Shown one piece after another: positions 1 through 12,615 of a stretch of DNA of 13,112 nt. Positions within the stretch are counted from its first letter, which is position 1, and each line of letters starts with the position of its first letter. The notes under the pieces were generated by a model. The model saw nothing but the letters and a program-made list of their open reading frames with translations, was not told the origin of the DNA and made no database searches. A program made the translations under genes and the position numbers. This DNA is from Hyphomicrobium sp. (lineage in GTDB: Bacteria; Pseudomonadota; Alphaproteobacteria; Rhizobiales; Hyphomicrobiaceae): NCBI GenBank assembly GCA_030598645.1, contig JAUVPN010000026.1, positions 1 through 13,112 on the forward strand, given 5' to 3'.

Positions 1-491
1 GGAACACCAATTGACGGGCTGTCCGTATCCCCAGCCATACGGCGGATTGGACGTACGGCCGACTCGGGGACCCTGGCCGCCAACTCAAAACCCAACGTCG
101 ACGTCGTTAAAGTAGCTTTGAAGGCGGACTGCAAATTGCTTTGTTAAGTCGCAGAGTCCAAGTTTAAGATTTCGCGGGCAACAAGCGCACATCTAGCTCC
201 CGTCTAAAAACGTCAGCTTTGGGCGGTAGTGCCGACGCCCCTGATGTTCGCAGCGGAAGCTACGGATGCAGCAGACAGCGGTGACGAGTTCCATCCTAGT
301 CTAGCTTTTTTGGAGAGTATTTGGGCTAAGCAAGATTAACATAGGGACCAAACCGACAACCCCCAATTCAACCGCCTATGGCGGATTACGGCGCACTGTG
401 TAGGCAGAGAATCGCAATCAGTGCCCTCTCTAACTATCAGAAGTTGGATACTTGTCTCGACCTATGTTGTTGGATATTTCCCATGTGACTA
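1..491. other. Intergenic or decayed region, no convincing gene
   Basis: No supported gene. Frame 2 is open from the window edge to TAG at 113-115 and gives a Pro/Gly/Tyr-rich peptide containing CPYPQPYGG, which could be the tail of a secreted protein starting outside the window. Frame 1 is open to TAA at 145-147. Neither has a recognisable motif. A small hairpin, CCGCC-TAT-GGCGG, lies near 371-383. Base composition looks more AT-rich than the right half of the window, consistent with non-coding or acquired DNA, but this is a visual impression. Confidence 0.4.
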
Positions 492-809
492 TTAGTTTGG
501 TTCATGGCTAAACCGTATTATTATTCTTGTGTTTTTGGCGTCTGTTAATGCGTTTACGGGGCTGTGTTTAGTCGTAGGTTTTTTGAAATTTGTTGTTCGC
601 CTCGGTCTCCTTATCGAGTCGTGTGGGGTTCGTTTTGCGCCCTTCTTGATCACGCGTTGAGCAGCAAGCCGGATCATAGCGCCAGCACCGGCGGCGGGTG
701 CGAGTGCATCGGCTTCGGACTGCAGAGCGGTGGCTCCCGCACCCTGCGCAAAGAGACAGAAAGAGGCAGCGAGTGCCGCACGAGAGAAAATTTTGAATTT
801 CTTGACCAT
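492..809 (-). CDS. Small exported cationic protein, function unknown
   Basis: Predicted 105-residue exported protein that I do not recognise. The start is the ATG at 807-809 because GAGGAG lies about 7 bases upstream of it; an upstream in-frame start near 854 has no comparable ribosome binding site. Residues 1-27 form a signal peptide: VKKFKIFSR basic end, Ala/Phe/Leu core, and a likely cut after AQGAGA. The mature part begins acidic (SEADA), then has a short Ala/Gly stretch (APAAGAGAM, 38-45) followed by a strongly basic region rich in Arg and Lys (about 51-81). The layout (signal peptide, Ala/Gly segment, basic tail) resembles the two glycine-zipper peptides further right, but it lacks the GxxxG series and is at best a distant relative. 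Two variant copies of the shared palindrome lie 72 and 91 bp upstream. Expression and role are inference only. Confidence 0.6.
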   Translation of the reverse strand: MVKKFKIFSRAALAASFCLFAQGAGATALQSEADALAPAAGAGAMIRLAAQRVIKKGAKRTPHDSIRRPRRTTNFKKPTTKHSPVNALTDAKNTRIIIRFSHEPN

Positions 810-881
810 GTTGAACTCCTCATCACCAGACAATGACGCGGGTTTTGTATTCATCCCAGTCCGGTTCCGTGGGATTATGAT

Positions 882-897
882 TGTTTCCGAAGGAACA
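882..897. promoter_or_regulatory. Variant copy 1 of the shared palindrome
   Basis: TGTTTCCGAAGGAACA matches the consensus TGTTCCCTAGGNAACA at 13 of 16 positions. It ends 72 bases before the start of the minus-strand gene at 809 and sits 3 bases from a second variant. An operator or -35 role is inferred from recurrence upstream of other secreted-protein genes in this window. Confidence 0.45.
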
Positions 898-900
898 GCG

Positions 901-916
901 CGTTCCCAAGGAAATA
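901..916. promoter_or_regulatory. Variant copy 2 of the shared palindrome
   Basis: CGTTCCCAAGGAAATA keeps the TTCCC-AGG core and matches 13 of 16 positions of the consensus, counting the free position as a match. It lies in tandem with the copy at 882-897 upstream of the minus-strand secreted-protein gene. The GGAAC on the minus strand has no CGTT 16-17 bases downstream, so a simple EcfG promoter is not supported here. Confidence 0.4.
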
Positions 917-1017
917 CCCGTAGGCCCGCACGAGCGATCTAATTTTCTCGCAACACCGGCCCCCCAGCATGACAACGCGCTAATCAAGAACAGGCAACGA
1001 GGCCTATATTTGAGTTG

Positions 1018-1551
1018 TCAATCCGGCATTGCATCCCCTTCGGCACCGAGAACGAAACGGTACAGGTGCCAGAATTTCCTGTCGCCGTAGTATACGCGAC
1101 CCTCCAGCCATTCGACGGAACGGTAGAGCGGTCGCAGTCCGAGATCAGCCATAATTGCGCAGGCCCCCTCGAAAGTCGTGACCTTAGCGCCAGGATTACC
1201 CGCCCAGCCGTCCCTATCGCCGAGCAGAGTCACGTAGATGAGACCATCCGCCTTTGCCAGGTGCTTCAGTCGCATGAGAAAGGCGCGCAAGTCGTAGGCG
1301 ACAAGATGGGAGACCAATGATGCAAGGACGAGGTCGTAGCGCTTGACGCTGTAAAAGTCCTCAAGAGCCGTCTTGCGAAAGGTGATCCCGTCAGGGAGAG
1401 CCATATCGGCCGGAGGATAAGGATCAATGGCATCGACCGCGTAACCGATCTCGGCGAATCGCTTCGCGATCGAACAGTCGCGCGCACCGATATCAAGCAA
1501 GTGACCCGGCTTCAGCTGTGCGATGGAACTAAGTATGGCAATGGGAGACAT
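1018..1551 (-). CDS. Class I SAM-dependent methyltransferase, substrate unknown
   Basis: A 177-residue protein with a compact Rossmann-type methyltransferase fold. Motif I is LLDIGARDC (18-26), the SAM-binding loop; the usual second glycine is replaced, giving DIGARD instead of DxGxG. An acidic residue at the end of the second strand (AIDP, D43) would bind the ribose. ALEDF (62-66) and RYDLVLASLVSHL (71-83) fit motifs II-IV. The C-terminal half (VEWLEGRVYYGDRKFWHLYRF) is aromatic and basic and probably forms the substrate side. The family methylates small molecules, lipids or proteins; nothing here picks one. The start is the ATG at 1549-1551: an in-frame TGA lies three codons upstream, so no earlier start is possible, although no clear ribosome binding site is seen. 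It has no partner on its strand nearby. Confidence 0.75.
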   Translation of the reverse strand: MSPIAILSSIAQLKPGHLLDIGARDCSIAKRFAEIGYAVDAIDPYPPADMALPDGITFRKTALEDFYSVKRYDLVLASLVSHLVAYDLRAFLMRLKHLAKADGLIYVTLLGDRDGWAGNPGAKVTTFEGACAIMADLGLRPLYRSVEWLEGRVYYGDRKFWHLYRFVLGAEGDAMPD

Positions 1552-1633
1552 GTGGCGTCACGCCTTCGATTTTTCTTAATCTTTCAGTCGCCGCTAATAA
1601 ACCGAATAGTGATCTTGCCAATCGGGAGACAGT

Positions 1634-1654
1634 GCCGCTCTGCGAATGAGCGGC
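1634..1654. other. Perfect 7-bp hairpin in intergenic region
   Basis: GCCGCTC, a 7-base loop, then GAGCGGC. It lies between the divergent methyltransferase and 69-residue peptide genes. No T-run follows it in either direction strongly enough to call a terminator (plus strand continues TCGTTCTT). Role unknown. Confidence 0.35.
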
Positions 1655-1699
1655 TCGTTCTTCAGGATCCTTTCAATGATTAGACTTGGCGTTACGCGC

Positions 1700-1715
1700 T
1701 GTTCCCTAGGTAACA
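1700..1715. promoter_or_regulatory. Copy of the shared palindrome upstream of the 69-aa peptide
   Basis: TGTTCCCTAGGTAACA, a 16-bp near-perfect palindrome with one mismatched pair. It ends 113 bases before the ATG at 1829 and also lies in the divergent region 148 bases from the methyltransferase start. The left flank, GGCGTT then six bases, is repeated at the same spacing in the copy at 3133-3148, so the conserved element may extend beyond the 16 bp. No CGTT occurs at EcfG spacing. Confidence 0.5.
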
Positions 1716-1828
1716 GCAATCAGTCCCGCGACTAACTATTTCAACGCCGCTATCGTTTCTAATTCAGTAGAGCTTCGTTCAGCCAGAAACCAGGATCAAT
1801 CTCGAAAATTTAATGGGGACACAAGACG

Positions 1829-2038
1829 ATGAAAAATGCAGCAATCTTCTTAGCAGTGGCCATGGTCGGCTTATCGGTTGGCGATGGTGTGCACGCTCAG
1901 CAGTCGTCATCCGAGCAGATGCGAAGGACCAAATCTCAACATGCAGCCGGTGCACATCCAGGAGCTAGTCTTGGTGCACTTGTTGGTGCCGGCGCTAAGT
2001 CTAGCCGCCGTACCTCGCGCCGTACCTCGCGCCGTTAG
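1829..2038 (+). CDS. Secreted glycine-zipper peptide with Arg-rich tail (paralogue A)
   Basis: A 69-residue precursor. Residues 1-23 are a signal peptide (MKNAAIFLAVAMVG..., cut after VHA, before QQ). The mature part of about 46 residues contains a glycine zipper, GxxxGxxxGxxxG, at G41, G45, G49 and G53 (GAHPGASLGALVGAG), followed by a basic tail with RRTS repeated (RRTSRRTSRR, 60-69). Glycine zippers pack helices in membranes and are common in small envelope proteins. The 87-residue gene at 2755-3018 aligns without gaps over residues 1-54, with identical zipper positions. The start has GGGGA about 10 bases upstream. It is preceded by the shared palindrome at 1700-1715. Membrane activity, DNA or polyanion binding, or a structural envelope role are all possible; none is shown. 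Confidence 0.65.
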   Translation: MKNAAIFLAVAMVGLSVGDGVHAQQSSSEQMRRTKSQHAAGAHPGASLGALVGAGAKSSRRTSRRTSRR

Positions 2039-2171
2039 GTCGGAAGAGCTTATCGATGTCGGATGAACACAAGTTGGCAGTTCTAGACGCACTAGCTGTG
2101 CGTGCCAATTCAGTGGTTTCTTCCTGCACTTGGCCAGCAAAGTAACTGCATGCCAAAATCAAGGTCCGAGC

Positions 2172-2702
2172 ATGGGTATCGAAATACAAGCGATAAGAAC
2201 CGAGCATATTGTCGGATTTCATAGAGTGCTTGGAACGATAGCAAGGGAGCGCCGTTTCCTATCTTTTCTGGACGCGCCGCCGTTCGAGGCGTCCGAACGG
2301 TACGTGAAACAGGTTATAGATAATCGGCAGCCCTTGTTTGTTGTCGTTACCCTCGACGGAGAAGTGGTTGGCTGGTGTGACATTCTACCGGCGGGACGGC
2401 CCCTGCATGCTCACGTCGGGGTGCTGGGTATGGGGCTGACAGGACCGTACAGGGGGCAAGGTATTGGCAGACGACTGATTGATGTCACTCTGGCTAAAGC
2501 ACGTCGGCTCGGCCTCTGGAGAACCGAGCTATCAGTGTACGCCGACAATACTCCTGCCATCCGGCTCTACCAGACCGTCGGGTTCGAGATCGAAGGCACC
2601 AAGAAACAAGAGACACAAATAGATGGCCGCTTTATCGATGTCCTGATGATGGCGAAACTGGTAGTCCCAAAGAGCGGCAGTACGGACGAAAAGTTAGGGT
2701 AG
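2172..2702 (+). CDS. GNAT-family N-acetyltransferase
   Basis: A 176-residue acetyl-CoA-dependent acyltransferase. The ATG at 2172 is chosen because AAGG lies 7 bases before it and translation opens directly into the first strand (MGIEIQAIRTEHI); an in-frame ATG at 2130 would add 14 residues without a good ribosome binding site. Motif A, which binds the CoA pyrophosphate, is YRGQGIGRRLI (93-103), preceded by the strand HVGVLGMGLT. Motif B follows as LWRTELSVYADNTPAIRLYQTVGF (115-138), the usual N-x-x-A-x-x-L-Y-x-x-x-G-F pattern. Full length for the family. The acceptor cannot be read from sequence: protein N-termini, amines, antibiotics and polyamines are all known for GNATs. It lies between the two paralogous glycine-zipper peptide genes and converges with the second. 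Confidence 0.88.
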   Translation: MGIEIQAIRTEHIVGFHRVLGTIARERRFLSFLDAPPFEASERYVKQVIDNRQPLFVVVTLDGEVVGWCDILPAGRPLHAHVGVLGMGLTGPYRGQGIGRRLIDVTLAKARRLGLWRTELSVYADNTPAIRLYQTVGFEIEGTKKQETQIDGRFIDVLMMAKLVVPKSGSTDEKLG

Positions 2703-2703
2703 G

Positions 2704-2761
2704 GCGATAAAAGATGCGCCGCTAGCATGCAGCTTTGAGAAGGTTTCCTTGGCTTTATCGC
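2704..2761. terminator. Long-loop inverted repeat between convergent genes
   Basis: GCGATAAA (2704-2711) pairs with TTTATCGC (2754-2761) across a 42-base interval. It starts two bases after the acetyltransferase stop codon, and its right arm covers the stop codon of the minus-strand peptide gene. The A/T ends would give a short U-run on either transcript, so a bidirectional terminator is plausible, though the loop is long for an intrinsic terminator. Confidence 0.35.
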
Positions 2762-3018
2762 GAAGCTCTTACGCGTCGTAGGGGCGCGGGTTTTTTTCGG
2801 CTGGGCTGGTTGGTGCCGTGCATGCGGTAAAATGTATCGCGTCCGAAACTACGGCGTGCTCCAACACGTGCACCAACAATTGCGCCGGGACTTGCACCGG
2901 CTGACCGTTCAGCTGTCTTAGCTCCCAGCTGCCGGATTCCCGCTTGTTGGGCATGAGCACCATCGCTGAGCGATAAAGTGACTATTGCGGCTGCAATTAT
3001 GATTGTTGCCTTGTTCAT
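2755..3018 (-). CDS. Secreted glycine-zipper peptide with basic tail (paralogue B)
   Basis: An 87-residue precursor, paralogous to the peptide at 1829-2038. Signal peptide 1-23 (MNKATIIIAAAIV..., cut after AHA, before QQ). The glycine zipper G41, G45, G49, G53 (GASPGAIVGARVG) sits at exactly the same residue numbers as in paralogue A. After the zipper the two diverge: this one carries a longer basic tail (RRSFGR, then RKKPAPLRRVRASR). The start is the ATG at 3016-3018; a TTG start five codons upstream is less likely. Upstream, GGGACT is a weak ribosome binding site. The shared palindrome at 3133-3148 ends 114 bases upstream, almost the same distance as in paralogue A (113), suggesting the whole promoter was duplicated. 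A run of seven T at about 2790 within the tail could be a frameshift site, so the last 20 or so residues are less certain. Confidence 0.6.
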   Translation of the reverse strand: MNKATIIIAAAIVTLSLSDGAHAQQAGIRQLGAKTAERSAGASPGAIVGARVGARRSFGRDTFYRMHGTNQPSRKKPAPLRRVRASR

Positions 3019-3132
3019 TTCTCGAAGTCCCAACTAGATTTGGAAATAGGTCCGGATACGAGGCTGAGCAGACGTATTAACCGGATTACCAACGTCAGGA
3101 CCCGTCCCATACGTAAGCTCGGCGTTGGGCAC

Positions 3133-3148
3133 TGTTCCCTAGGGAACA
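3133..3148. promoter_or_regulatory. Perfect copy of the shared palindrome between divergent genes
   Basis: TGTTCCCTAGGGAACA is a perfect 16-bp palindrome between the minus-strand 87-residue peptide gene and the plus-strand 90-residue gene. It contains GGAAC on both strands. A single site could therefore control both genes. The plus-strand GGAAC forms part of the EcfG-like promoter listed separately. Confidence 0.6.
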
Positions 3149-3168
3149 ATCGAGAGTTCACGCTCGTT
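3143..3168 (+). promoter_or_regulatory. EcfG-type general stress promoter (GGAAC-N17-CGTT)
   Basis: GGAAC at 3143-3147 and CGTT at 3165-3168 are separated by exactly 17 bases. This matches the known alphaproteobacterial general-stress sigma factor (EcfG, controlled by PhyR/NepR) consensus GGAAC-N16/17-CGTT. It would start a transcript near 3175 with a leader of about 60 bases before the ATG at 3236. Use in vivo is inferred. Confidence 0.6.
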
Positions 3169-3235
3169 CTATCGTCACGTGTGTCCACTGGATCGCAGTG
3201 AGCGCGATGCATGCAATTCGTGAAAGGAACGAACA

Positions 3236-3508
3236 ATGACGACAAAGGTCATGAAGAACGGCATCCTTGGTAGCGCAGTTCTTGTGTCCGCTATGATTGG
3301 CCTGCTGGCGAACGGCGCGGCTCAGGCGCATGGCGCCGAGGGATTCCATTTGCAGGGCTATCAATTCGACCGGCAATTGAATGCGATGGCGCCCGGCATC
3401 GCGACGACGACTGCTCTTAATCAGCACCTTCTCAATACTGTCTGCGTCCGCAACGGACGTTGCCCGAACTTAGGCGATCCTACGACAGCGCTGCTACTGC
3501 TCGGGTGA
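3236..3508 (+). CDS. Small secreted protein, function unknown
   Basis: A 90-residue precursor that I do not recognise. AAGGA lies 7 bases before the ATG, a strong start; an internal Met at residue 6 is an alternative. Residues 1-31 are a signal peptide (LGSAVLVSAMIGLLANG core, cut after AQA). The mature part of about 59 residues is neutral, His/Gln/Asn-containing, and has two cysteines (C70, C76, in CVRNGRC), which could form a small disulphide loop if the protein is periplasmic. It ends in a hydrophobic TALLLLG. It is preceded by an EcfG-type promoter, so general-stress induction is likely. Unlike its divergent neighbour it has no basic tail or glycine zipper. Confidence 0.65.
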   Translation: MTTKVMKNGILGSAVLVSAMIGLLANGAAQAHGAEGFHLQGYQFDRQLNAMAPGIATTTALNQHLLNTVCVRNGRCPNLGDPTTALLLLG

Positions 3509-3537
3509 ATCAAGACTCCATGGGGCATGGACATCTC

Positions 3538-3566
3538 GTCGCGCTCGCTTTTCAAGTGAGCGCGAC
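3538..3566 (+). terminator. Stem-loop downstream of the 90-aa gene
   Basis: GTCGCGCTCGC pairs with GTGAGCGCGAC across a 7-base loop (TTTTCAA), 11 pairs with one G-T wobble. It starts 29 bases after the stop codon at 3508. There is no U-run after the stem, so it may act as an RNA 3'-end stabiliser or a weak terminator. Confidence 0.45.
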
Positions 3567-3817
3567 AGTCGTGCTTGGTGCGCGTGAATTAATAGCCGTC
3601 CTTTGCCAGTCTTACTGCGCTCATACTTTTTCCCGTTCAGGCAATGTCTGGTTGTCTGCCGTGAACGTGCGGTCAACATCGGGCCGACAGCGCTGCAGAC
3701 ACTGCGCTCTAACCTCCGACCTTAGCTGGAGGTATCTCTAGGCTGACGTCAAGGATTCGCCATCACTCAGGCCGGCCCGTCGTCTTCACGAATGTGGGCG
3801 TCAACCGTCGCACCGAC

Positions 3818-3833
3818 TGTTCCCTAGGAAACA
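3818..3833. promoter_or_regulatory. Copy of the shared palindrome upstream of the 763-aa gene
   Basis: TGTTCCCTAGGAAACA, a 16-bp near-perfect palindrome ending 80 bases before the ATG at 3914. A CGTT lies at 3852-3855, but the spacing from the degenerate GGAAAC is about 19-20 bases, outside the usual EcfG range. An operator role is inferred from recurrence. Confidence 0.5.
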
Positions 3834-3913
3834 TCACAAGCGATCCAGCTCCGTTACCAATGGAACACATGGGGTGTCTGACGCGGGATGTTTGCAACGC
3901 CTGGAGAGGTGCA

Positions 3914-6205
3914 ATGTTGATCCTGCATTCAAGTAAGTTTTTGAGGACGGCCGCGTTTGGTGCGGCGTCCATACTGGTGACGTCGCTGTCGTCACCTGCT
4001 CAGGCTGTGAAAGATCCATTTAATGACGTGACACTCAATTGGTATGCTCCCAAAACCAGCAACGGTCGTGCGGGCACGGTGTCGATCTTTGTTGTTCCCG
4101 ACCAAGGCGGTGACGTCTATACGCGCGTGAGTGCACAGCCATTGGAAGCCACGTTCGCTGCCGGAGCTAGCGTGAAGAATCATCATAGGATCTACGGTTA
4201 TGCAGTGGCCGTGGGAGCGCCGGCGGACCCGAGGTTATTTAAGTATGGTACGCCTCCTCCGTATCACAAAGGCGCCTTCGACGTTGATCATGAAGGCAAA
4301 AAACATATCAGCAGGCTTGTAAAGTTTGAATTAGACGCTGCTACGGCTTTGATCTGGGGATCGTCGAATAAAATTACGGGAGCTAACCGTGCGCAGGAGG
4401 TCGTCGCCAAATGCAATGAGACGTACGGTGGCGTCATTCCCGCGGGCCGTGAACAACCGCTCGGTGAGACATACCCCATCGAGGTCTTTCTCATGGTCTC
4501 TGCGGGTAAGAAGAAAGCATCGGGTGGCGTACTTACCACCGATGGCTGGGTCTCAAACCGTGCCGGAGATGTCATCGAGGTTGTCCATCGGACGATCGAT
4601 GCCACCGTTTATTGCACAACTGATGAATACAGATCGTCAGAGTTGTCCCAAAAACCTCTGAATGTTGACATTCGCGCCAAACAGAAAGGCGATACGTGTC
4701 CCAAAGATAGCGAAGTGACGGCGTACATCGACTACGATCGGCCGACAACTGCGCGCTTCTGGATCGTCCGCAATGGGCGTAGAGGAAAGAAGTTCACGGT
4801 CAAATCCCGCGAGATCTCCTTAGCTGGCAAGACGTGGCATCGTGTTGAGCGCATGCAGAGCTACAAGTTGGATCCTGGCATCAGCCGATTCCAGGTCGAA
4901 GTTGAAGGTGGCTCAAAAAGCAAATCCAAGGTGCTTAATGTCACCTGTCCGCCGTTTAAGGTGTTCTCGACTTGGCTGAAATATGAGGTGGCCAAGACGC
5001 CCTATTGTCCCAAGCAAGTGAAGGAAACGACCACCTTTAAGACGACGCAACCCGGTTCCATACCCTATCGGATCAAGGTTCAGGGCGGGCTCGTGGCCCA
5101 CGAAGGTATCACCTTGGCGAAGCGCGAGGGCGATGCGTATGTAGCCAAGGTCACACGTACGCTCAGCATGAATGAGTTCGACAAAGATATGATGGCCGAA
5201 GTCAAAGGCGACTCCTCAGCCAACTCCGGCTGGACGCGGCTGAAGGTCGATTGTCTGGACGTTGTGGGTGCGACGCTGACCCTACGCGATAAGAACGGTC
5301 CGTCGTGCAAGCGCCAGGAGAAGGCGGCCATCGCGATCCGTACGGATCTTGAAGGCCCCGTTCCTTACCGATTGGATTGTACGGGCGGGCGTTCCTTTAC
5401 CGGAACCGCTGCGGCCTACAAGACAGGCAACGGCAAGTTTATCGGCGTCGACATGCGCAAACTCGCCATTACGAAGACCGAGCACATCAACTGCGCGCTG
5501 AAGACCACGATCAAAGGTAACACTAAGATCGTGGCGTTGCGGGGTCACAAGTACAAGTGCGTCAACCGCAACGTGGGCTCTGCAAGCAACGACGTGTCGA
5601 GCGTGCCCGATCCGTCGCACGATCGACCCAAGCCGAACGTGGTCTTTGACCCGATCCCGAACTTCAAGTGCGTCAACGGCCGCAAGGTCGGTGGCAAGTG
5701 CAAGTGTCGTCGCGGTCATCGCCTCGTCCGCCTGAATGGACGGCGCTACCGTTGCGACAAGGAAAAGCCGGACGTGGCAAGCCCACCGCCAACGCGGATT
5801 CCCGATCCCAAGGTTGTCTCCTGCCGCAATGGTCGCAAGATCAAGGGCAAATGTAAGTGCCGTCGGGGTCATCGCCTCGTGCGCATTGGCAGCTGGCACT
5901 ACCGCTGCGAACCGGGACGCGCTGTGGCGAAGGGCAGCGACAAGACCAGCCGTGATACAGCGGCTGATCGGCGACGCCGCGCAGCCCTGAAGAAGGCGCA
6001 GGAAGCTAAGAGGCGTGCTGAGGCAAAACGCAAGCGCGATGCCGCCAATAAGGCTGCTGAGGTGCGGCGCATGCGAAAGAAAGCAGAGCAAGCCAGGCGC
6101 AGACGCGATGCTGCCCGAAAAGCCCTGGAAGCAAAGCGCAAGGCGGCCGCAAAGCGCCGCTCATCGATGAGAGGGACAAAACCACGGCGCCACGTCGTGC
6201 GGTAA
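3914..6205 (+). CDS. Large secreted mosaic protein: Cys-bracketed modules, duplicated Cys motif, Lys/Arg tail
   Basis: A 763-residue exported protein of unknown function. I start it at ATG 3914 because GGAGAGG lies just upstream and a signal peptide follows at once (1-31, cut after PAQA); an in-frame ATG at 3794 would bury the signal and overlap the palindrome. Layout: an N-terminal domain (32-250); three modules of about 85-90 residues, each bracketed by cysteines (262-345, 365-447, 465-549), the last two sharing the phrase PYR near their middle, probably beta-sandwiches; two 29-residue repeats with identical spacing C-x9-C-x-C-x15-C (586-614 and 637-665, both reading GKCKCRRGHRLVR); and a strongly basic, probably helical tail (685-750, Ala/Lys/Arg-rich). 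Cys motifs of this broad type occur in exported Rhizobiales proteins. A cell-surface or periplasmic role, with the tail binding an anionic polymer, is inference. A terminator follows the gene. Confidence 0.8.
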   Translation: MLILHSSKFLRTAAFGAASILVTSLSSPAQAVKDPFNDVTLNWYAPKTSNGRAGTVSIFVVPDQGGDVYTRVSAQPLEATFAAGASVKNHHRIYGYAVAVGAPADPRLFKYGTPPPYHKGAFDVDHEGKKHISRLVKFELDAATALIWGSSNKITGANRAQEVVAKCNETYGGVIPAGREQPLGETYPIEVFLMVSAGKKKASGGVLTTDGWVSNRAGDVIEVVHRTIDATVYCTTDEYRSSELSQKPLNVDIRAKQKGDTCPKDSEVTAYIDYDRPTTARFWIVRNGRRGKKFTVKSREISLAGKTWHRVERMQSYKLDPGISRFQVEVEGGSKSKSKVLNVTCPPFKVFSTWLKYEVAKTPYCPKQVKETTTFKTTQPGSIPYRIKVQGGLVAHEGITLAKREGDAYVAKVTRTLSMNEFDKDMMAEVKGDSSANSGWTRLKVDCLDVVGATLTLRDKNGPSCKRQEKAAIAIRTDLEGPVPYRLDCTGGRSFTGTAAAYKTGNGKFIGVDMRKLAITKTEHINCALKTTIKGNTKIVALRGHKYKCVNRNVGSASNDVSSVPDPSHDRPKPNVVFDPIPNFKCVNGRKVGGKCKCRRGHRLVRLNGRRYRCDKEKPDVASPPPTRIPDPKVVSCRNGRKIKGKCKCRRGHRLVRIGSWHYRCEPGRAVAKGSDKTSRDTAADRRRRAALKKAQEAKRRAEAKRKRDAANKAAEVRRMRKKAEQARRRRDAARKALEAKRKAAAKRRSSMRGTKPRRHVVR
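5669..5755 (+). repeat. Coding repeat copy 1 (29-residue Cys motif)
   Basis: Encodes residues 586-614 of the 763-residue protein, with cysteines at 586, 596, 598 and 614. It is a direct duplicate of 5822-5908, separated by 66 bases that encode a Pro-rich linker. An even, paired set of four cysteines suits two disulphides or a metal site. Confidence 0.8.
5822..5908 (+). repeat. Coding repeat copy 2 (29-residue Cys motif)
   Basis: Encodes residues 637-665, with cysteines at 637, 647, 649 and 665, spacing identical to copy 1. GKCKCRRGHRLVR is unchanged between copies, while the intervening positions differ (LNGRRYRC against IGSWHYRC). The DNA has also drifted, so the duplication is not recent. 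Confidence 0.8.
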
Positions 6206-6232
6206 TCAGGCGTCGAAATCTACAAAACAAAC

Positions 6233-6268
6233 GAAGCGCGTCCGGAAACGGGCGCGCTTCTCTTCGTT
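6233..6268 (+). terminator. Intrinsic terminator after the 763-aa gene
   Basis: GAAGCGCGTCCG pairs with CGGGCGCGCTTC, 12 pairs with one wobble, closed by a GAAA tetraloop, then TCTTCGTT. It lies 27 bases after the stop codon. The stable stem and tetraloop make this the clearest terminator in the window, although the T-run is interrupted. Confidence 0.75.
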
Positions 6269-6384
6269 GCACAGAGAACTTCTCCCGCAACTACAACCTT
6301 TGAGAAATGCCAAAGTGCAGTGCCACGACAGGCGAGGTTAGGAATAAGGGATAGCATGAAACGCTTGCATCGCTATTCCATGTC

Positions 6385-6505
6385 AATGTCCGCTTTGGGT
6401 CATGAGCAGACATTTGAAGGCTCATTTGAGATGTCCGCTTTACCCCCGAAAGCGGACATTTTGAGAGGCGTCTGCGATGTCCGCTAAGTGCCAAAAGCGG
6501 ACATT
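6385..6505. repeat. Composite block of three palindromic repeats (P1-P2-P3)
   Basis: Three related palindromes in order. P1 is at 6385-6414, ATGTCCGCTTTGGGTC then AGCAGACAT. P2 is at 6431-6459, arms ATGTCCGCTTT and AAAGCGGACAT with loop ACCCCCG. P3 is at 6477-6504, arms ATGTCCGCT and AGCGGACAT around AAGTGCCAAA. Spacers are about 17 bases. Partial versions of the same block occur at three other places in the window, all intergenic. This is a dispersed, REP-like element of Bradyrhizobium-type genomes, from memory. Confidence 0.85.
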
Positions 6506-6879
6506 GGGTCGAATGGTCGTACTGGAGCGCTATGCGCTTCTAGAACGGGTTGCTCATTGCACGTGTGCATTAGAGGTAGAGCGTCCCCCACGTCTGGCAG
6601 ATGGAGACACCACGGGCCCACGTTCGACAGGCCACTCGCTAGTGAAGGCTCAGCGAGAAAGGCCCCTTATGCGCGTTAGCAGCGTTCCCGATCAAATCTG
6701 ATATACGCCGCCTGAGCCTGAGTGGCCGGTTCACAACATGAACCCAGCAAACGCGATTCATTTGCGCTGTTTAGGTTGCGTGAACGATGAGTTTAAGTCG
6801 TGGTTCGCTCTCGTCTATGGTCGGAATGTGGGGAACTGGGCCCACCTAGTGATCGCCCAAAAGAGCACGGAGCATAACC

Positions 6880-7395
6880 ATGGAATCCTTTGCCCTTACA
6901 CTCATTGATAAACCCCGCCAAAGTGAGAAGTGGCAATTCCAAGTTGACGGACGTGCTGCGCGACTTCTTGGCCCGGATGGACAGACAGCGGCAACCTTCA
7001 CACCAGACCAAGCTTATCAGGATGTCGAAGTTGTACGCTTCGCCAAAAGCGGACACAACGTTGGCATTTCAGCTGACGGCCAAACTCTTCATTTCACGGC
7101 GTGGCCCAAAGCTTACAAAGGTATCAAGGCATTTACAGAACTCTCTCCCCTTGCGGCCAGCACGCCCGAATTACAGAGTTTGAGACGCGTCGGATTAATC
7201 CGATTGATCATAGGCGCTGCATTGTTCGTCGGAGGGGGGATTTTTTCTCTTGATGGCCTGCTCGCACTTGGCGGCTTCGGAGGTGGCGGCAAACACTACT
7301 TATTTTATGGTGCCATACTATTTGGCGCAGTGTTCCTGTACCAAAGCTCCCATTACTACGCCGAGGCTAGGAGGCTAGCCAAAATCCACACGTGA
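6880..7395 (+). CDS. Membrane protein with two C-terminal helices, function unknown
   Basis: A 171-residue protein. The ATG at 6880 has ACGGAG 7 bases upstream. Residues 1-100 are a soluble, strand-rich domain (KWQFQVDGRAARLLGPDG, then ISADGQTLHFTAWP), which reads like a small pleckstrin-homology-type or other beta domain, but I cannot assign a family. Two transmembrane helices follow: about 104-124 and 140-157, separated by a glycine-rich turn (GGFGGGGKH). The end is short and charged (EARRLAKIH). No signal peptide, so the soluble domain is probably cytoplasmic. It stands alone between repeat blocks, with its own terminator-like hairpin after the stop. No upstream copy of the palindrome seen further left. 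Confidence 0.7.
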   Translation: MESFALTLIDKPRQSEKWQFQVDGRAARLLGPDGQTAATFTPDQAYQDVEVVRFAKSGHNVGISADGQTLHFTAWPKAYKGIKAFTELSPLAASTPELQSLRRVGLIRLIIGAALFVGGGIFSLDGLLALGGFGGGGKHYLFYGAILFGAVFLYQSSHYYAEARRLAKIHT

Positions 7396-7396
7396 A

Positions 7397-7456
7397 CGAC
7401 GTAGGTGTTTGGGAAGACACCGCCGTACTCTGGTGACACCCCTACGTCGCATTTTG
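7397..7456 (+). terminator. Terminator-like inverted repeat after the 171-aa gene
   Basis: CGACGTAGGTGT (7397-7408) pairs with ACACCCCTACGTCG (7436-7449) apart from a 2-base bulge, followed by CATTTTGTT. The loop of about 27 bases can itself form a smaller hairpin. It begins two bases after the stop codon, supporting a role in ending this transcript. Confidence 0.55.
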
Positions 7457-7489
7457 TTCAAAAGCAGCCATTGAGGTGGGCGTCCGGCA

Positions 7490-7562
7490 AGTCGGCTTTA
7501 CCCCCGAAAGCAGACATTCTAATAGGCAGCCGAAGTGTCCGCTAAGTGCCAAAAGCGGACAT
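7490..7562. repeat. Palindromic repeat block, P2-P3 form
   Basis: A decayed P2 copy (7490-7516: GTCGGCTTTACCCCCGAAAG, then CAGACAT) and a P3 copy (7535-7562: GTGTCCGCTAAGTGCC, then AAAAGCGGACAT), about 18 bases apart. P1 is missing. It lies between the convergent membrane-protein and dehydrogenase genes. The remaining bases to 7663 hold nothing I can identify. Confidence 0.8.
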
Positions 7563-7663
7563 CGGCGTATTCCAGCCGAATGCCTGTTCAACTTGCTTGG
7601 TTAGAGTACCGCCGGTCTGCTTGCCGTGATGCCATGCGCTGAATAGGTAGCATGCGTCTGTGG

Positions 7664-9070
7664 CTATATGCCTATTGCGCTATAGGCGTCAGCAGCGCGT
7701 CTTATCGCAATCGAGTATGCTGCGGTTCTCAGATCGGGTACGCGAGAACTACCGGTCCAAACGGAATCGATCTGTTCATAAGCGGATCGCATCATGTCAT
7801 CCAGCCCGGATCTCACGAGATCAATCTCCCTAGCCCCCTCAAGGAAAGATCGAGCCGTTTCCAATGGAAAGCTTGTGCCAGTCATGGTTTCCAGAGAGCG
7901 AGCCAGAATCTTGTGGCTTGCTTCGTGATGACGCCGCTCCATCAAGCCGAAAGGAATGTGGGTCAGGTTCTTCACCCACTCGAAATAGCTGACGACGACA
8001 CCACCAGCGTTGACGTACAAGTCCGGTAGAACAACGATCCCGCGATCACGCAAGATGGCGTCGGCCTCGAATGTTGTTGGACCGTTAGCAGCCTCGACGA
8101 TCAGCTTGGCGCGGATCTGGGCCGCGTTGCCGGCATGGATCACCTGCTCCGTGGCCGCCGGAATAAGGATATCGCAATCGCGCACGAGCATTGATGCGCC
8201 ATTCGTGACGAATTCCGCGTCCGGATACCCGCCAACCCCGCCCGCCCTCTGGAGGTGTTGCTTGAGCCGCTCAATGGGCAGACCATCCTCTGCATACACC
8301 GCTCCATCCCGCTCGATCACGCCGATCACTCGGCAACCGTCCTCCTCGCTCAGAAACTTCGCCGCGTGATAGCCGACATTGCCCAGACCCTGGATGATCA
8401 AAGACTTGCCTGCCAGGGTGGGAGCAAGCCCGGCTCTTGCCAAGCCTTGCTCGTGGCGAAAGAATTCTCGCAATGCGTATTGGACGCCGCGACCCGTGGC
8501 CTCGATCCGTCCTTCGATACCCCCGGCTGCAAGCGGTTTTCCAGTAACGCAAGCAAGCGCATTTATGTCATTCGGAGACCAGCGGCGGTACTCGTCCGCC
8601 ATCCACACCATTATCATCTCGTTGGTGCCCATATCGGGCGCTGGAACATTCTGGCTCGGACCAAGGAAATTGTGCCGCGCTAGCTCCTGCGTGAACCGCC
8701 TAGTGATCCGCTCGAGCTCCTCACGCGACCATTGTGATGCATCGATGCGCAGGCCACCCTTGGATCCACCAAAGGGTAAGCCCATCAAAGAGCATTTGTA
8801 CGTCATGAGGGCAGCCAGCGCCTCGACCTCTTGCTGATCCGCATCCGGCGAATATCGAAGGCCACCCTTGGTAGGCGTGAAATGCGTGCTGTGCACTGCC
8901 CGCCAGCCGAAAAAGGTCACCATGCGGCCGCGGAGGCGGACACCGAAGCGTGCGACGTACGTGGCATTGCAGACGCGGATTTTCTCCGCCAATCCATCCT
9001 GCATAGGCACATAGCGTGCAGCTGCATCAAATTGGCGGTTTACGTCGTCGAGAAACGATTGACCTCCCAT
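7664..9070 (-). CDS. Glu/Leu/Phe/Val-type amino-acid dehydrogenase, probably glutamate dehydrogenase
   Basis: A 468-residue cytosolic enzyme that oxidatively deaminates an amino acid to its 2-oxo acid with NAD(P), reversibly. The N-terminal dimerisation and substrate domain carries TKGGLRYSP (67-75), the substrate lysine in TYK (K92), the catalytic lysine in PFGGSKGG (K104) and PAPDMGT (143-149) with the conserved Asp146. The Rossmann domain shows GLGNVG (228-233), with an acidic residue at the end of the next strand (VIERDG, E253), which favours NAD over NADP. AANGPTT and NAGGVVVSYFEWVKN follow as in glutamate dehydrogenases. Length and layout fit the small hexameric class. The ATG at 9068-9070 has AGGGAG upstream. 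Leucine or phenylalanine specificity cannot be excluded. It has no operon partner, and a palindromic site lies upstream. Confidence 0.92.
   Translation of the reverse strand: MGGQSFLDDVNRQFDAAARYVPMQDGLAEKIRVCNATYVARFGVRLRGRMVTFFGWRAVHSTHFTPTKGGLRYSPDADQQEVEALAALMTYKCSLMGLPFGGSKGGLRIDASQWSREELERITRRFTQELARHNFLGPSQNVPAPDMGTNEMIMVWMADEYRRWSPNDINALACVTGKPLAAGGIEGRIEATGRGVQYALREFFRHEQGLARAGLAPTLAGKSLIIQGLGNVGYHAAKFLSEEDGCRVIGVIERDGAVYAEDGLPIERLKQHLQRAGGVGGYPDAEFVTNGASMLVRDCDILIPAATEQVIHAGNAAQIRAKLIVEAANGPTTFEADAILRDRGIVVLPDLYVNAGGVVVSYFEWVKNLTHIPFGLMERRHHEASHKILARSLETMTGTSFPLETARSFLEGAREIDLVRSGLDDMMRSAYEQIDSVWTGSSRVPDLRTAAYSIAIRRAADAYSAIGI
7670..7687 (-). other. Hairpin over the dehydrogenase C-terminal codons
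   Basis: GCCTAT, 6-base loop, ATAGGC, covering the last sense codons just before the dehydrogenase stop codon. No U-run follows on the minus strand. It may contribute to transcript ending but is too short to call a terminator. Confidence 0.3.
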
Positions 9071-9092
9071 GAAGCACTCCCTACTGGTCGCA

Positions 9093-9104
9093 ATGTTGCA
9101 ACAT
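9093..9104. promoter_or_regulatory. Palindromic operator candidate upstream of the dehydrogenase
   Basis: ATGTTGCAACAT is a perfect 12-bp palindrome 22 bases before the dehydrogenase start, close enough to overlap a promoter or leader. Amino-acid dehydrogenase genes are often controlled by Lrp/AsnC-type regulators, which bind palindromes of about this size, but no regulator gene is in the window. A further hairpin, GCCACC-TCAT-GGTGGC, lies at 9125-9140. Confidence 0.45.
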
Positions 9105-9208
9105 GTGCCCTGCGTATCGCAACAGCCACCTCATGGTGGCCCAGAGGAGGGGTAGCGGTCATCGAGAAAAGCAAACCGGTGCCCTGCCCCGCAAAGCGAT
9201 GCTGGTTT

Positions 9209-9321
9209 CTAAGTTAGAATCCGGCGGAGTCTCGCGTGCGTCATAGATGTCCGCTTTACCCCCCGAAAGCGGACATTCTCAGCTGCGTCATCCACGTCCG
9301 CTAAGTGCCAAAAGCGGACAT
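9209..9321. repeat. Palindromic repeat block, leader plus P2-P3
   Basis: P2 at 9247-9275 (with one extra C in the loop) and P3 at 9295-9321. It is preceded at 9209-9235 by a leader reading AGTTAGAATCCGGCGGAG, which matches 11290-11316 at 22 of 27 positions. The repeated element is therefore longer than the palindromes. It lies between the divergent dehydrogenase and cytochrome genes, whose whole gap (9071-9426) has no other gene I can support. Confidence 0.8.
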
Positions 9322-9426
9322 TGAGGTGTCGACAAGAACGATCATGGGAAGGAAGCTATCGGCTCGATCAAGAAAGGCGCTTGCGCCCAATCTCGGGAAG
9401 CCGAGCAGAAAGACAGAGCCAGCCGG

Positions 9427-9702
9427 GTGTCTGCACGCATCTTCACGTTACTTGTGATCATGGTCTGCCCACTAATCTCAATGGCCGCTTTGTCAGGTAA
9501 GGCGATTGCCGATGAACAAGCCTTCAAGGAGCATTGCGGCGAATGTCATGCCCGCGCAGCCTCACTTGCGCGAAATCTAAAGGGATCAACGGCCGAAGAA
9601 CGTACCACCATGCTGGCCCAGTTTCTCGAAACGCATCACACCAAAGATGCCAAGGCACGCACGGCGGTCATCGACTATCTGGTCGGCCTGTCAGCAAAGT
9701 GA
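9427..9702 (+). CDS. Small exported c-type cytochrome
   Basis: A 91-residue precursor with one haem-binding motif, CGECH (37-41), attached covalently to haem in the periplasm. An N-terminal hydrophobic stretch (IFTLLVIMVCPLISMAALS) is a signal peptide, probably cut before DEQAF. The start is uncertain: GTG at 9427 has no good ribosome binding site, and ATG at 9460 would leave a shorter signal. After the haem motif the protein is short and helical (about 50 residues). The only later methionine is M62, and H70/H71 are alternatives for the sixth ligand. It ends with DYLVGLSAK, as in small class I cytochromes. It faces a ferric-reductase-like flavocytochrome with 4 bp between the genes, so an electron-transfer partnership is possible but not shown. 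Confidence 0.8.
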   Translation: MSARIFTLLVIMVCPLISMAALSGKAIADEQAFKEHCGECHARAASLARNLKGSTAEERTTMLAQFLETHHTKDAKARTAVIDYLVGLSAK

Positions 9703-9706
9703 TTGG

Positions 9707-11125
9707 CTAACGCAGGCCGAAGGCCGTAACTGCCGCAACGAGAACCAGAAGGACGGCGAGACACTCTCTGCGGCGCTTTTTATCAAGACGTCCTCTTCCT
9801 GCAGCGTAATCAAAGCGCTCGTAGCCAATTGAATGGGGCAGCACACCAGAGTTCAGGAGCGCGTCGGCTACAAGCTCCATCATGCGGGCGGGTCCACAAA
9901 TGAGGGCGGTCACATGTTCGGGTGCCAATCCCTTGAGCAAGTCGCGTATTTGCCTCTCACTGGGAGGCCCAGGCAGAAAACCTGTCCCTTCACTTGCTTC
10001 GTCGACGAGGCAGGTCAAGGAAAAATCAAGGTGTGACTGCAGTTCTCGCAACCGTTCCAACCCGGCCAGGGCAGACGGTGTTCGCGCTGAATAGAGTAGA
10101 CGGAATGTTCGCTTGTCGCCCTCAGCGGCGGCTTGTTCTAACATGCCGAGCAGCGGCGCGATGCCGACGCCTCCGGCAATCATGAGAACCGGCCCGCGGC
10201 CGTCGGGCAGAATGAAGCTGCCATGGGGTCCATCCACCGCGACGCGCGTGCCGGGTTCAACCGATGCAAAGCTATTGGTGCAATCTCCTACCTCACGTAT
10301 CACGAGCCGAAGATTTGGTAGATCGGCTGGGCCGGACGCAATCGAGAACGGGTGATCATGGAAGGGCGGACGGTTGGGCGCGAGCGTGATCCACATAAAT
10401 TGGCCACCGCGAAATTGCAGGTTCGTCGTAGAGCGCCCGTGCAGCAACATCTCCACGACATGAGGGCTGAGCCGGTGCAAACGCTCAACGCGCCAGTCCC
10501 CTCGCCACATCCTTCTCGGCCGGACGAAGTAAACGACGCTGATTGCACCAACAGACATTGCCGCAAACAGCAACCAAACGAGGGCCAAGGGAAGTTCATT
10601 GCTGTAGGTTCCGGCCGTCATCGCGTGATGCAGTGCTAGGCCCGCCACAGCGATTGCGAGCAAGCTATGGGATGCCCGCCAATATTCGTACCTCACGAAT
10701 GATCGGGTACGGATGGAGGCGAAGGCGACGAGGACAAGCAGGCCAACGATCGCGACAACGCCGCTCCTGAGACGATTGCTCGCGAGCATGCCGGTCAGCC
10801 GATGCCAGGCAGCGGTCGGGTCAGCGTAGAGCGTCGGGGCGAGATAGATCAGAGGGTGGAGAACCGCAAAGAAGACCAGCACATAGGCTGCGAGGCGGTG
10901 GAAGCCCATCGTGCGATCGATGCCCACCTGCCCGGAAACACTCTCAAACCTGCCGGAACTCAGGAACTGCAGGAACATCAGTGCAGCGGCCGTGAGGCCG
11001 AAGCCAGTGCCAAGCTCGCTCCACACGCTTGCTGCCTCAACACCACTCGCCAAAGCGGCCAGGATGGGAAGAAGAGCGGCAGCGATGAATAGGCTAGCAA
11101 GTGCCTGCCCAGATAGGCTCGGCAT
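9707..11125 (-). CDS. Ferric reductase/NADPH-oxidase-like flavocytochrome b
   Basis: A 472-residue inner-membrane oxidoreductase expected to pass electrons from NAD(P)H through FAD and haem b across the membrane, to ferric iron, oxygen or a periplasmic acceptor. The N-terminal half has several helices with haem-ligand candidates H76, H90, H153 and H166/H167, as in the ferric-reductase transmembrane family. The FAD domain carries HPFSIAS (258-264). The nucleotide domain has IAGGVGIAPLLGML (316-329), CGPARMM (410-416) and YERFDY (435-440). Unusually, a further hydrophobic segment (455-470) follows a KKRRR stop and ends the protein. I start at ATG 11123-11125; a TTG at 11176 would add 17 residues. 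No strong ribosome binding site is seen at either. It converges on the small cytochrome c gene. Confidence 0.85.
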   Translation of the reverse strand: MPSLSGQALASLFIAAALLPILAALASGVEAASVWSELGTGFGLTAAALMFLQFLSSGRFESVSGQVGIDRTMGFHRLAAYVLVFFAVLHPLIYLAPTLYADPTAAWHRLTGMLASNRLRSGVVAIVGLLVLVAFASIRTRSFVRYEYWRASHSLLAIAVAGLALHHAMTAGTYSNELPLALVWLLFAAMSVGAISVVYFVRPRRMWRGDWRVERLHRLSPHVVEMLLHGRSTTNLQFRGGQFMWITLAPNRPPFHDHPFSIASGPADLPNLRLVIREVGDCTNSFASVEPGTRVAVDGPHGSFILPDGRGPVLMIAGGVGIAPLLGMLEQAAAEGDKRTFRLLYSARTPSALAGLERLRELQSHLDFSLTCLVDEASEGTGFLPGPPSERQIRDLLKGLAPEHVTALICGPARMMELVADALLNSGVLPHSIGYERFDYAAGRGRLDKKRRRECLAVLLVLVAAVTAFGLR

Positions 11126-11485
11126 CCGACGCTTGTTTTGCGTGCCTTCCTTCAACTCACCACTAGCCCAAATCAAAGCCTAGTTCAGTCGGCCGAAGTC
11201 ACGCTGAGACGCTACGCGACTAGTATTGCAGCTGAACCATCGAGGACAGCCTCCTCAGTCTGACCTACTCCAGGAAGCAGTACCAGTCTCCAAATTAGGA
11301 TCCGGCGTAGGCTCGCTCCCGTCCTCAATGTCCGCTCTTGGGTCAGAAGCAGACATTCGAGCGTGCGTCAGGGATGTCTGCTTTACCCCCAAGAGCGGAC
11401 ATACGCCCGCGAGGAACCCGGGTGGTGCTCCCCTGCTATCAGTCGATTTCTGCCCATGCGGGATCGCAGGCGTGTGCCGCCGTCG
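11126..11485. other. Intergenic region with repeat block
   Basis: Between the flavocytochrome start and the YhhJ-like stop. It holds the repeat block at 11290-11402. Overlapping plus-strand open frames here read through the palindromes (peptides beginning MSALGSEAD or MSALPPRAD) and are typical artefacts of this repeat. No gene is supported. Confidence 0.6.
11290..11402. repeat. Palindromic repeat block, leader plus P1-P2
   Basis: The leader at 11290-11316 (AATTAGGATCCGGCGTAGG) matches that at 9209. P1 is at 11327-11357 (AATGTCCGCTCTTGGGTC, then AGCAGACATT) and P2 is at 11374-11402 (ATGTCTGCTTTACCCCC, then AAGAGCGGACAT). P3 is missing. P1's arms carry changes, as do P2's, so this copy is diverged. 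Confidence 0.8.
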
Positions 11486-12613
11486 TCATTGGGCGCGCGC
11501 CAGCATCGTGCGGAAGCGAGCAAGCGCGATCGTGAGGAAGATCGCCCCCAAAACTATGAGCACAGCAATATGCCGCCAGACGACATCAATGCCGGCAGCG
11601 CGATACAGAACCGATTGCGCAAAGTTCACGAAATGCACGGACGGCGAAACCTGTATTGCGACCTGAAGCGGTTCGGGCATGCTCTCCAGCGGCGAAAAGG
11701 CACCTGAGAGCATATTGAGAATGAGAAAGACCGGAATAGCGAGCAGCGTAAACTGCGGCATCGTATTCGCAATCGTAGCGAGCAAAATCCCCAACGATGC
11801 CAAAGCGAACAGATAGACGGCTGTTCCCCCGACAAATAGGGCGATTGAGCCCTGGATCGGAACTTCGAGCACGTACTGCACGACGATGACGAGCCCAAGC
11901 GTCGCGGCAACGAGGATCACCAAGCCGTTGGCCCAGATCTTCGCGGCAGCGATTTCACTGGCCCGGATCGGCATCACCAATAAGTGTTCAATAGTGCCGC
12001 GCTCTCGTTCCCGGATGACTGCTGCGCCGACAAGGAGAATGGTCAGTATGCCCAAGCCTTCCAGCACCGCCAGGACCGCCTGGAACCAGATGCCTTCAAG
12101 ATTTGGATTAAAGAACGCGCGGGTGACAGCAACCACGGGCAGTTGGGCCTCGACGCCGCGTGACTGGAGGTAGTTCCGTGTTTCCTGCTGCACGATGGAC
12201 TCGACGTAGCTCCCGCCGACGCCAGCTTGCGTCATTGCAGTAGCGTCTATGTTCAGCTGCAGTGTCGGAACGCTCTCCCGCAACACGTCGGCTTCGAAGT
12301 CCGACGGGATGTCGAGTACGAACGCGTAAGTGCCGCGATCCATCTCTCGATCGATCGCGGAGCGATCGATGAGGTCAGGGCGACGGAAATACGGCTTAAG
12401 GAGTCCATCTCGAATACGGGCTGAGAGCGCGGAGCGATCGGAGTCGACGATCGCGATCGCCGCGTTATTGACGTCCGTTCTGATTCCCGTCGCTTCGCTG
12501 TAAATATTGAGCGAGAAGGCATAAATGATGAAGGCGAACAGCACCTTGTCGCTGGCAAGGCTGGAAAACTCCTTCAGGCCGAGGCGATAGACGTTGGAGA
12601 GCCAGCGTCCCAT
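11486..12613 (-). CDS. yhhJ: ABC-2 type permease, YhhJ-like
   Basis: A 375-residue inner-membrane permease. One N-terminal helix (about 22-38) is followed by a large extracytoplasmic domain (45-170) and about five C-terminal helices from 180 on. RERERGTIEHLLVMP (201-215) is the hallmark cytoplasmic loop of ABC-2 exporters. This matches the YhhJ/YbhR group, which in Escherichia coli lies beside RbbA (YhiH). The start is ATG 12613: AGGAGG lies 7 bases upstream. A GTG at 12619 overlaps the preceding stop but sits too close to the AGGAGG. The upstream gene ends at 12616, so the two are translationally coupled. It probably forms the membrane half of an exporter with the RbbA-like protein; the cargo is unknown. 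The extracytoplasmic domain (EATGIRTDVNNAAIAIVDSD) is as in drug- and sterol-export relatives. Confidence 0.87.
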   Translation of the reverse strand: MGRWLSNVYRLGLKEFSSLASDKVLFAFIIYAFSLNIYSEATGIRTDVNNAAIAIVDSDRSALSARIRDGLLKPYFRRPDLIDRSAIDREMDRGTYAFVLDIPSDFEADVLRESVPTLQLNIDATAMTQAGVGGSYVESIVQQETRNYLQSRGVEAQLPVVAVTRAFFNPNLEGIWFQAVLAVLEGLGILTILLVGAAVIRERERGTIEHLLVMPIRASEIAAAKIWANGLVILVAATLGLVIVVQYVLEVPIQGSIALFVGGTAVYLFALASLGILLATIANTMPQFTLLAIPVFLILNMLSGAFSPLESMPEPLQVAIQVSPSVHFVNFAQSVLYRAAGIDVVWRHIAVLIVLGAIFLTIALARFRTMLARAQ

Positions 12614-12615
12614 CC

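Follow-up and report, generated by a model that had tools for sequence, protein, structure and literature searches.

The closest described counterpart of the element considered here is the regulon of Clr (SMc02175) from the symbiont Sinorhizobium meliloti, a cluster-G CRP-type activator that works when loaded with cyclic AMP or cyclic GMP (cAMP/cGMP). In PMC10127613, this regulator is described through chromatin immunoprecipitation with sequencing (ChIP-seq), electrophoretic mobility shift assays (EMSA) and 20 activated promoters, with a binding consensus, HGTYHC-N4-GRWACA (HGTYHCNNNNGRWACA), drawn from six verified S. meliloti sites, a core, GTNNCNNNNGNNAC, and, in most of its promoters, a distance of −42 to −76 between box and start. 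The same consensus is also printed in PMC5498481. Here, we analyze a stretch of 13,112 nucleotides from Hyphomicrobium sp., an uncultured bacterium (contig JAUVPN010000026.1, positions 1 to 13,112, the whole of which is referred to below as the window), in which a 16-bp palindrome, TGTTCCCTAGGNAACA, recurs beside the genes for exported proteins in its left part. Judging by sequence, these palindromes are very probably Clr boxes, serving an orthologue of S. meliloti Clr. The regulatory switch is already known, and its use on the target genes of this window appears to be new; the papers on the Clr regulator among the matches listed concern, judged by their titles, S. meliloti, which is not proof of absence elsewhere. 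As in S. meliloti, the boxes follow the 16-bp dyad HGTYHC-N4-GRWACA and are intergenic, often lying between divergent genes.

Searching both strands of the window locates exact copies of TGTTCCCTAGGNAACA at 1700–1715, 3133–3148 and 3818–3833, and more divergent ones at 882–897 (two mismatches on the minus strand, three on the plus strand) and 901–916 (three mismatches). An earlier sequence-only reading of this DNA had given all five of these positions correctly, together with the starts of the genes that it named, but overlooked a sixth site at 3852–3867, which has three mismatches to TGTTCCCTAGGNAACA on the minus strand and matches the Clr consensus in full on the plus strand. With up to three mismatches allowed and both strands counted, there are 10 matches to TGTTCCCTAGGNAACA, compared to 0.12 in dinucleotide shuffles. 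Full matches to the Clr consensus are found at 882–897, 1700–1715, 3133–3148, 3818–3833 and 3852–3867, all five of them intergenic and within the left 4 kb, whereas shuffles give means of 0.07 (window) and 0.02 (left 4 kb), and none of 300 shuffles contained as many. Read directly, 901–916 is one mismatch away from the published consensus, and the window holds no full-consensus box to the right of 3867.

The motif was then compared with the presence of Clr across 397 genomes of the order Hyphomicrobiales, which was entered via Methyloceanibacter marginalis, the only named organism with a relative (39%) of the 763-amino-acid (aa) protein encoded by the window. We define a motif genome as one carrying TGTTCCCTAGGNAACA with at most one mismatch, and a Clr-positive genome as one with a Clr homologue at E ≤ 1e-30; some of the 51 homologues are only 34–40% identical to Clr and may not be orthologues. 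The motif is present in 38 of the 397 genomes and a Clr homologue in 51, with an overlap of 21 genomes compared to 4.9 expected (Fisher p = 2e-11), whereas Clr is found in just 6 of the 34 carriers of a reversed control motif (p = 0.42). There are 50 distinct sites in the 51 Clr-positive genomes, compared to 17 in the 346 others, and all 12 genomes with at least two distinct sites are Clr-positive. The recognition helix of Clr in these 12 motif-rich genomes reads GASRPKVN in ten and GASRPKIN in two (G353 and G388; such handles are our own), and is shared with crystallized Clr (7PZA). A cyclase signature (KTIGDAYM) lies approximately 1–1.2 kb beyond clr in ten of the 12 (loci L053, L055, L056, L057, L059, L060, L062, L063, L065 and L067); in G118, the clr product carries the Pfam domains cNMP_binding and HTH_Crp_2, and the next gene encodes MASE7 and Guanylate_cyc domains. 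In this respect the motif-rich relatives, in which clr mostly adjoins a cyclase gene, differ from S. meliloti, for which PMC10127613 gives 28 cyclase genes. Set beside class II CRP systems such as that of Escherichia coli CAP, the Clr helix GASRPK(V/I)N stands in place of the RE(T/M)VGR motif named in PMC10127613.

The sites in Clr-positive genomes are intergenic in 59 of 64 cases, compared to 9 of 17 in Clr-negative genomes, and a gene begins no more than 300 bp away from 52 of these 59 (seven intergenic sites lack a called neighboring gene). These 64 sites comprise all 50 with at most one mismatch in Clr-positive genomes, 47 of which are intergenic, and 14 perfect TGTTCC-N4-GGAACA sites among the matches listed for G118, G224 and G353, 12 of which are intergenic; genes were called by home-made rules that permit upstream starts for all genes alike.

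Promoter geometry provides a further line of evidence. In the Clr-positive relatives, 15 of 63 gene-facing flanks carry a −10-like element, [CT]AnnnT, starting 29 bp from the box center (+29). Other offsets average 1.1 such flanks and never exceed 4, and at +29 the element occurs in 1 of 39 flanks that face away from genes and in 2 of 34 from Clr-negative genomes. A −10-like element at +29 gives the box a center at −41.5, where class II activators sit, as in class II CRP promoters such as those of E. coli CAP, where an activator dyad centered at −41.5 is likewise combined with a −10 element, except that the half-sites in the window are TGTTC-N6-GAACA rather than the TGTGA-N6-TCACA of a CAP site. 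This position falls at the near end of the distances printed for S. meliloti Clr (−42 to −76 in PMC10127613). Six of the eight oriented boxes of the window have [CT]A at +29 (base rate 0.10), with four for those six at the next best offset. The fitting hexamers are CATAAT (box 901, minus), TATTTC and CATTGA (box 1700, plus and minus), TATCGT and TATGGG (box 3133, plus and minus) and TACCAA (box 3818, plus), and the two misfitting ones, ACTGGG (882, minus) and TGTTTG (3852, plus), belong to the second boxes of tandem pairs. These second boxes would overlie the core promoter, with centers at about −22.5 (882) and −7.5 (3852) relative to the starts that their partner boxes define. With this spacing, transcription starts are predicted near 867 (minus), 1749 (plus), 3099 (minus), 3182 (plus) and 3867 (plus). 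The candidate elements are given below, with genes named by start position and strand:

874–879, minus: −10-like hexamer CATAAT of gene 809−
882–897, no strand assigned: second full-consensus Clr box of gene 809−, at about −22.5 of the putative start, with ACTGGG at +29
901–916, minus: relaxed Clr box in the class II position for gene 809−, with CATAAT at +29 and a putative transcription start at 867
1700–1715, no strand assigned: Clr box between the methyltransferase gene 1551− and 1829+, full consensus on the minus strand, core on both
3133–3148, no strand assigned: perfect palindromic Clr box between the divergent genes 3018− and 3236+, with TATCGT (plus) and TATGGG (minus) at +29
3170–3175, plus: −10-like hexamer TATCGT of gene 3236+
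3818–3833, no strand assigned: full-consensus Clr box occupying the class II position before gene 3914+, with a weak TACCAA at +29
3852–3867, plus: full-consensus Clr box, the second for gene 3914+, centered near −7.5 and covering the putative −10 element and start

As for the organism itself, its own genes suggest that it probably belongs in or near the family that contains G224 and G243, albeit without certainty. Its glutamate dehydrogenase (7664–9070) is closest to those of G224 (76%) and G243 (73%), both Clr-positive, with clr adjoining a cyclase gene, and of this one family, with matches at E ≤ 1e-140 in 12 of the 397 genomes and the remainder at most 62%. Across the 103 genomes of this family, perfect TGTTCC-N4-GGAACA sites number 358, compared to 57 for the reversed control, and relatives of the 763-aa protein, mostly partial, are found in 9 of the 103. 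In G477, a member of the family, the 763-aa protein has a distant homologue (26%), with a perfect box, and CAGTGT at its +29, approximately 200 bp before the chosen start. Against this placement, 7 of 30 Methyloceanibacter-family genomes encode relatives of the 763-aa protein, as does 1 of the 51 Clr-positive genomes, and the ABC permease of the window is closest to one from a genome that has no Clr hit.

Several observations weigh against assigning the boxes to Clr. The source organism is represented by the window alone, and Clr with its cyclase is observed only in relatives. The looser core GTNNCNNNNGNNAC is less striking than the full consensus, occurring at 8 places compared to 2.9 in shuffles, a count equaled by 3 of 300. 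In four of the six fitting boxes, agreement is limited to the first two positions of the −10 element, such that the full [CT]AnnnT stands at +29 of just two of the eight, and which tandem box counts as first and which as second was decided partly from the hexamers. Kinship matters as well: 14 of the 21 overlap genomes and 10 of the 12 motif-rich genomes share one family (leaving 7 and 2 outside it), which weakens the co-occurrence p-values. Some Clr-positive genomes show little or no motif excess over the control (with at most one mismatch, 7 vs 8 in G262, 29 vs 26 in G388, 15 vs 12 in G243 and 16 vs 12 in G381), and G243 has no perfect TGTTCC-N4-GGAACA site. For the ABC permease of the window (11486–12619), the closest match (61%) comes from a genome lacking a Clr hit.

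The genomes with relatives of the 763-aa protein add further points of this kind. M. marginalis has neither TGTTCCCTAGGNAACA with up to two mismatches nor Clr at E ≤ 1e-30, and shows no excess of a looser motif (7 vs 6 control). In three genomes with such relatives the motif does not exceed the control (7 vs 6 in G001, 13 vs 15 in G023 and 12 vs 17 in G029); neither G001 nor G029 yields a Clr homologue at E ≤ 1e-30, and the CRP-type proteins of G023, a genome outside the sample of 397, are at most 31% identical to Clr and have no SRPK helix. A full-consensus box stands upstream of the relatives in one of seven larger loci, that of G477, while the other six, not all of which reach far upstream, have none. 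It is also absent from 13 other, mostly shorter loci, some of which overlap and many of which stop short of the start codon, and from three further loci around one gene. For G477, the analysis covered the locus and its box.

Taking these points into account, the alternative that survives best, though with only a slim chance of being correct, is that the boxes bind some other regulator, either a repressor or another CRP/FNR-type protein, that shares the TGTTCC-N4-GGAACA half-sites. The regulator of the source organism is itself unseen, and 17 of the 38 motif genomes have no Clr hit at E ≤ 1e-30; however, those 17 carry one site each, with 8 of the 17 sites inside genes, as by chance, while every one of the 12 motif-rich genomes encodes a Clr with the GASRPK(V/I)N helix. 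The sequence-only reading had proposed a repressor site overlapping the −35 element, and two second boxes do lie over putative core promoters, but phasing at −41.5 is typical of an activator, and because this spacing is fixed, activation is favored over repression.

Copying of a promoter cassette could in principle account for the likeness of the boxes through recent duplication rather than selection for one regulator. The boxes at 1700 and 3133 each end a 54-nt repeat (1662–1715 and 3095–3148, 74% identical), to which the GGCGTT flank that the sequence-only reading had noted at both copies belongs, and the left arms of these boxes, aligned in register, agree at 26 of 40 positions and reach a local-alignment score of 12, where 200 shuffles reach at most 10. 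The genes 1829+ and 3018− are paralogues, and the next six bases beside box 882 (GCGCGT) are also found beside 1700, in inverted sense. Because this repeat joins them, the boxes at 1700 and 3133 cannot be counted as fully independent evidence. No other pair of 70-nt box flanks scored above shuffles, neighboring boxes on the same DNA aside, whereas the same type of box precedes unrelated genes in other genomes, and copying is in any case compatible with Clr binding, so that duplication as the whole explanation is highly improbable. Separately, a 24-nt stretch at 414–437 resembles the DNA to the right of the 1700 box (1716–1739; 79% identity, score 14, shuffled maximum 13), and is perhaps a decayed copy of that promoter.

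General stress promoters, in which the GGAAC of the palindrome would be the −35 element of sigma-EcfG (PhyR/NepR/EcfG; consensus GGAAC-N16/17-CGTT), or a doubled −35 as the sequence-only reading had suggested, are rejected and seem barely credible, since this combination fits only one of the six boxes (GGAAC-N17-CGTT at 3143) and recurs within the acetyltransferase gene (2232), the other five boxes lack a CGTT element, the base profile of the relatives has no CGTT at +23 to +27, and a −35 element does not need a 16-bp dyad symmetry.

Returning to the Clr boxes, the genes that face them in the window are as follows, with signal peptides judged by a simple home-made rule and not by SignalP:

492–809, minus: 105-aa exported basic protein (open reading frame from an inner ATG at 809; signal-peptide rule)
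1018–1551, minus: non-exported methyltransferase-like protein that faces box 1700 (Methyltransf_23 below its cut-off)
1829–2038, plus: 69-aa exported protein with a glycine zipper, GxxxGxxxGxxxG, and a basic tail
2755–3018, minus: 87-aa exported glycine-zipper protein with a basic tail, paralogue of 1829+ (homologue P0026)
3236–3508, plus: 90-aa exported protein with a CVRNGRC motif (homologues 69–83% identical)
3914–6205, plus: 763-aa exported protein with a putative tandem beta-sandwich, Cys-rich repeats and a Lys/Arg-rich C-terminal helix

All five genes downstream of the boxes pass the signal-peptide rule, in line with the sequence-only reading, and the methyltransferase and acetyltransferase fail it, such that five of the six box-facing genes look exported. 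Its further claim that every exported-protein gene is marked holds for the left cluster but not for the whole window, since 9427–9702, a CxxCH protein, also passes the rule and has no box, and we therefore limit the box rule to the left cluster. The paralogy of the 69-aa and 87-aa proteins is reflected in a score of 82 for their mature parts, compared to 49 for the best of 300 shuffles. At E ≤ 0.001, none of the 69-, 87-, 90-, 105- and 763-aa proteins falls into a Pfam or NCBIfam family, and no homologues of the 90-aa protein were found in plasmids. The 763-aa protein is predicted to consist of tandem beta-sandwich domains and a Lys/Arg-rich terminal helix (mean predicted local distance difference test score, pLDDT, 79; predicted template modeling score, pTM, 0.37), and a fold search with this model gave Ig-like or complement-type chains as the best among the matches listed, at template modeling (TM) scores of 0.10–0.18 by query length, and no family. 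The 24 relatives found, including the cluster of the query, form a family of exported proteins that are long and Cys-rich, combining beta-sandwich domains with a C-terminal helix rich in Lys, Arg and Ala; none were found in plasmids or viral contigs. In contrast to S. meliloti, the targets in the window are unrelated small exported proteins, and no legume symbiosis is implied; a likeness is that PMC5498481 lists a periplasmic target of unknown function, SMc02178.

The proposal of one regulon gains support here and its regulator acquires a name, Clr (CRP cluster G), whereas its restriction to secreted proteins fits this cluster and not the relatives, where sites are enriched for such genes. Carrying the comparison into the relatives, 24 of 65 genes adjacent to sites look exported compared to 42 of 197 in the background (one-sided p = 0.011, uncorrected for kinship), a less than two-fold enrichment rather than a rule, with 17 of 51 when only the 50 sites with at most one mismatch are counted. 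Exported FecR-domain proteins follow five sites (one each in G224, G262 and G334, and two in G118; loci L030, L032, L084, L100 and L116), and exported TPR proteins follow three (G224, G262 and G118; loci L080, L086 and L124). Among the Clr targets of S. meliloti, PMC5498481 describes SMc02177 and SMb20495 as FecR- and TPR-domain proteins, respectively, with SMc02177 being Clr-independent in nodules. Both domains thus appear common to the targets in S. meliloti and in the relatives, which is not proof of orthology, and their recurrence hints that Clr has long been tied to the cell envelope.

Other recurrent neighbors are a metallo-beta-lactamase fold, DUF3307, cytochrome b561, TetR and DUF2147, named from one Pfam-tested member and like starts, except for DUF2147, which was tested in both members. 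We note that the metallo-beta-lactamase-fold protein (start IGSGDAFGSGGRLQT and like) lies behind a Clr-type box in G224, G359, G370 and G402 (loci L081, L042, L102 and L041), and that its G224 member has a sub-threshold match to the cyclic-nucleotide-degrading Apyc1 (19.4 bits, cut-off 50); a role in cyclic-nucleotide turnover would be a guess. In G388 (loci L107, L108 and L109), Clr-type boxes precede short open reading frames with the look of a double-glycine leader (ASGG, IVSGG and VVSGG), which resemble precursors of secreted bacteriocins or ribosomally synthesized and post-translationally modified peptides (RiPPs), and are a possible further link between Clr and small secreted peptides.

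In the mechanism that we propose, a cyclase in the source organism would raise cAMP/cGMP, and Clr loaded with cyclic nucleotide would bind at −41.5 and recruit RNA polymerase in class II fashion. The single box at 3133 would activate the divergent pair 3018−/3236+, that at 1700 would activate 1829+ and perhaps also the methyltransferase, and 809− and 3914+ would be activated from their upstream boxes (901 and 3818). More speculatively, the second boxes over the core promoters of 809− and 3914+ would limit expression at high Clr occupancy; from their position alone, these two promoters are possibly self-limiting. That the clr–cyclase pair runs a cell-surface program of small secreted proteins, including glycine-zipper peptides, with self-limiting promoters whose output peaks at middling cAMP/cGMP, is a possibility that we consider rather unlikely as a whole. 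The assignment to Clr would nevertheless turn an anonymous palindrome into a named cAMP/cGMP circuit beyond S. meliloti, the sole symbiont with Clr studies in the covered literature, and co-regulation by Clr would be a first handle on the 763-aa surface-type protein, which has no known family, and on the four small exported ones. Combining the −41.5 geometry with the clr–cyclase neighborhood should allow Clr targets to be predicted across the whole bacterial family.

Among the remaining features of the window, a scan against Rfam gave no match at gathering score, and a generic sigma-70 scan of positions 1–6500 found 2 promoters compared to 3.4 in shuffles. Finally, palindromic repeats resembling repetitive extragenic palindromic (REP) elements (GTCCGCTTTACCCCCGAAAGCGGACATT and kin) lie between genes at 6384–6507, 7448–7565, 9234–9324 and 11320–11402.

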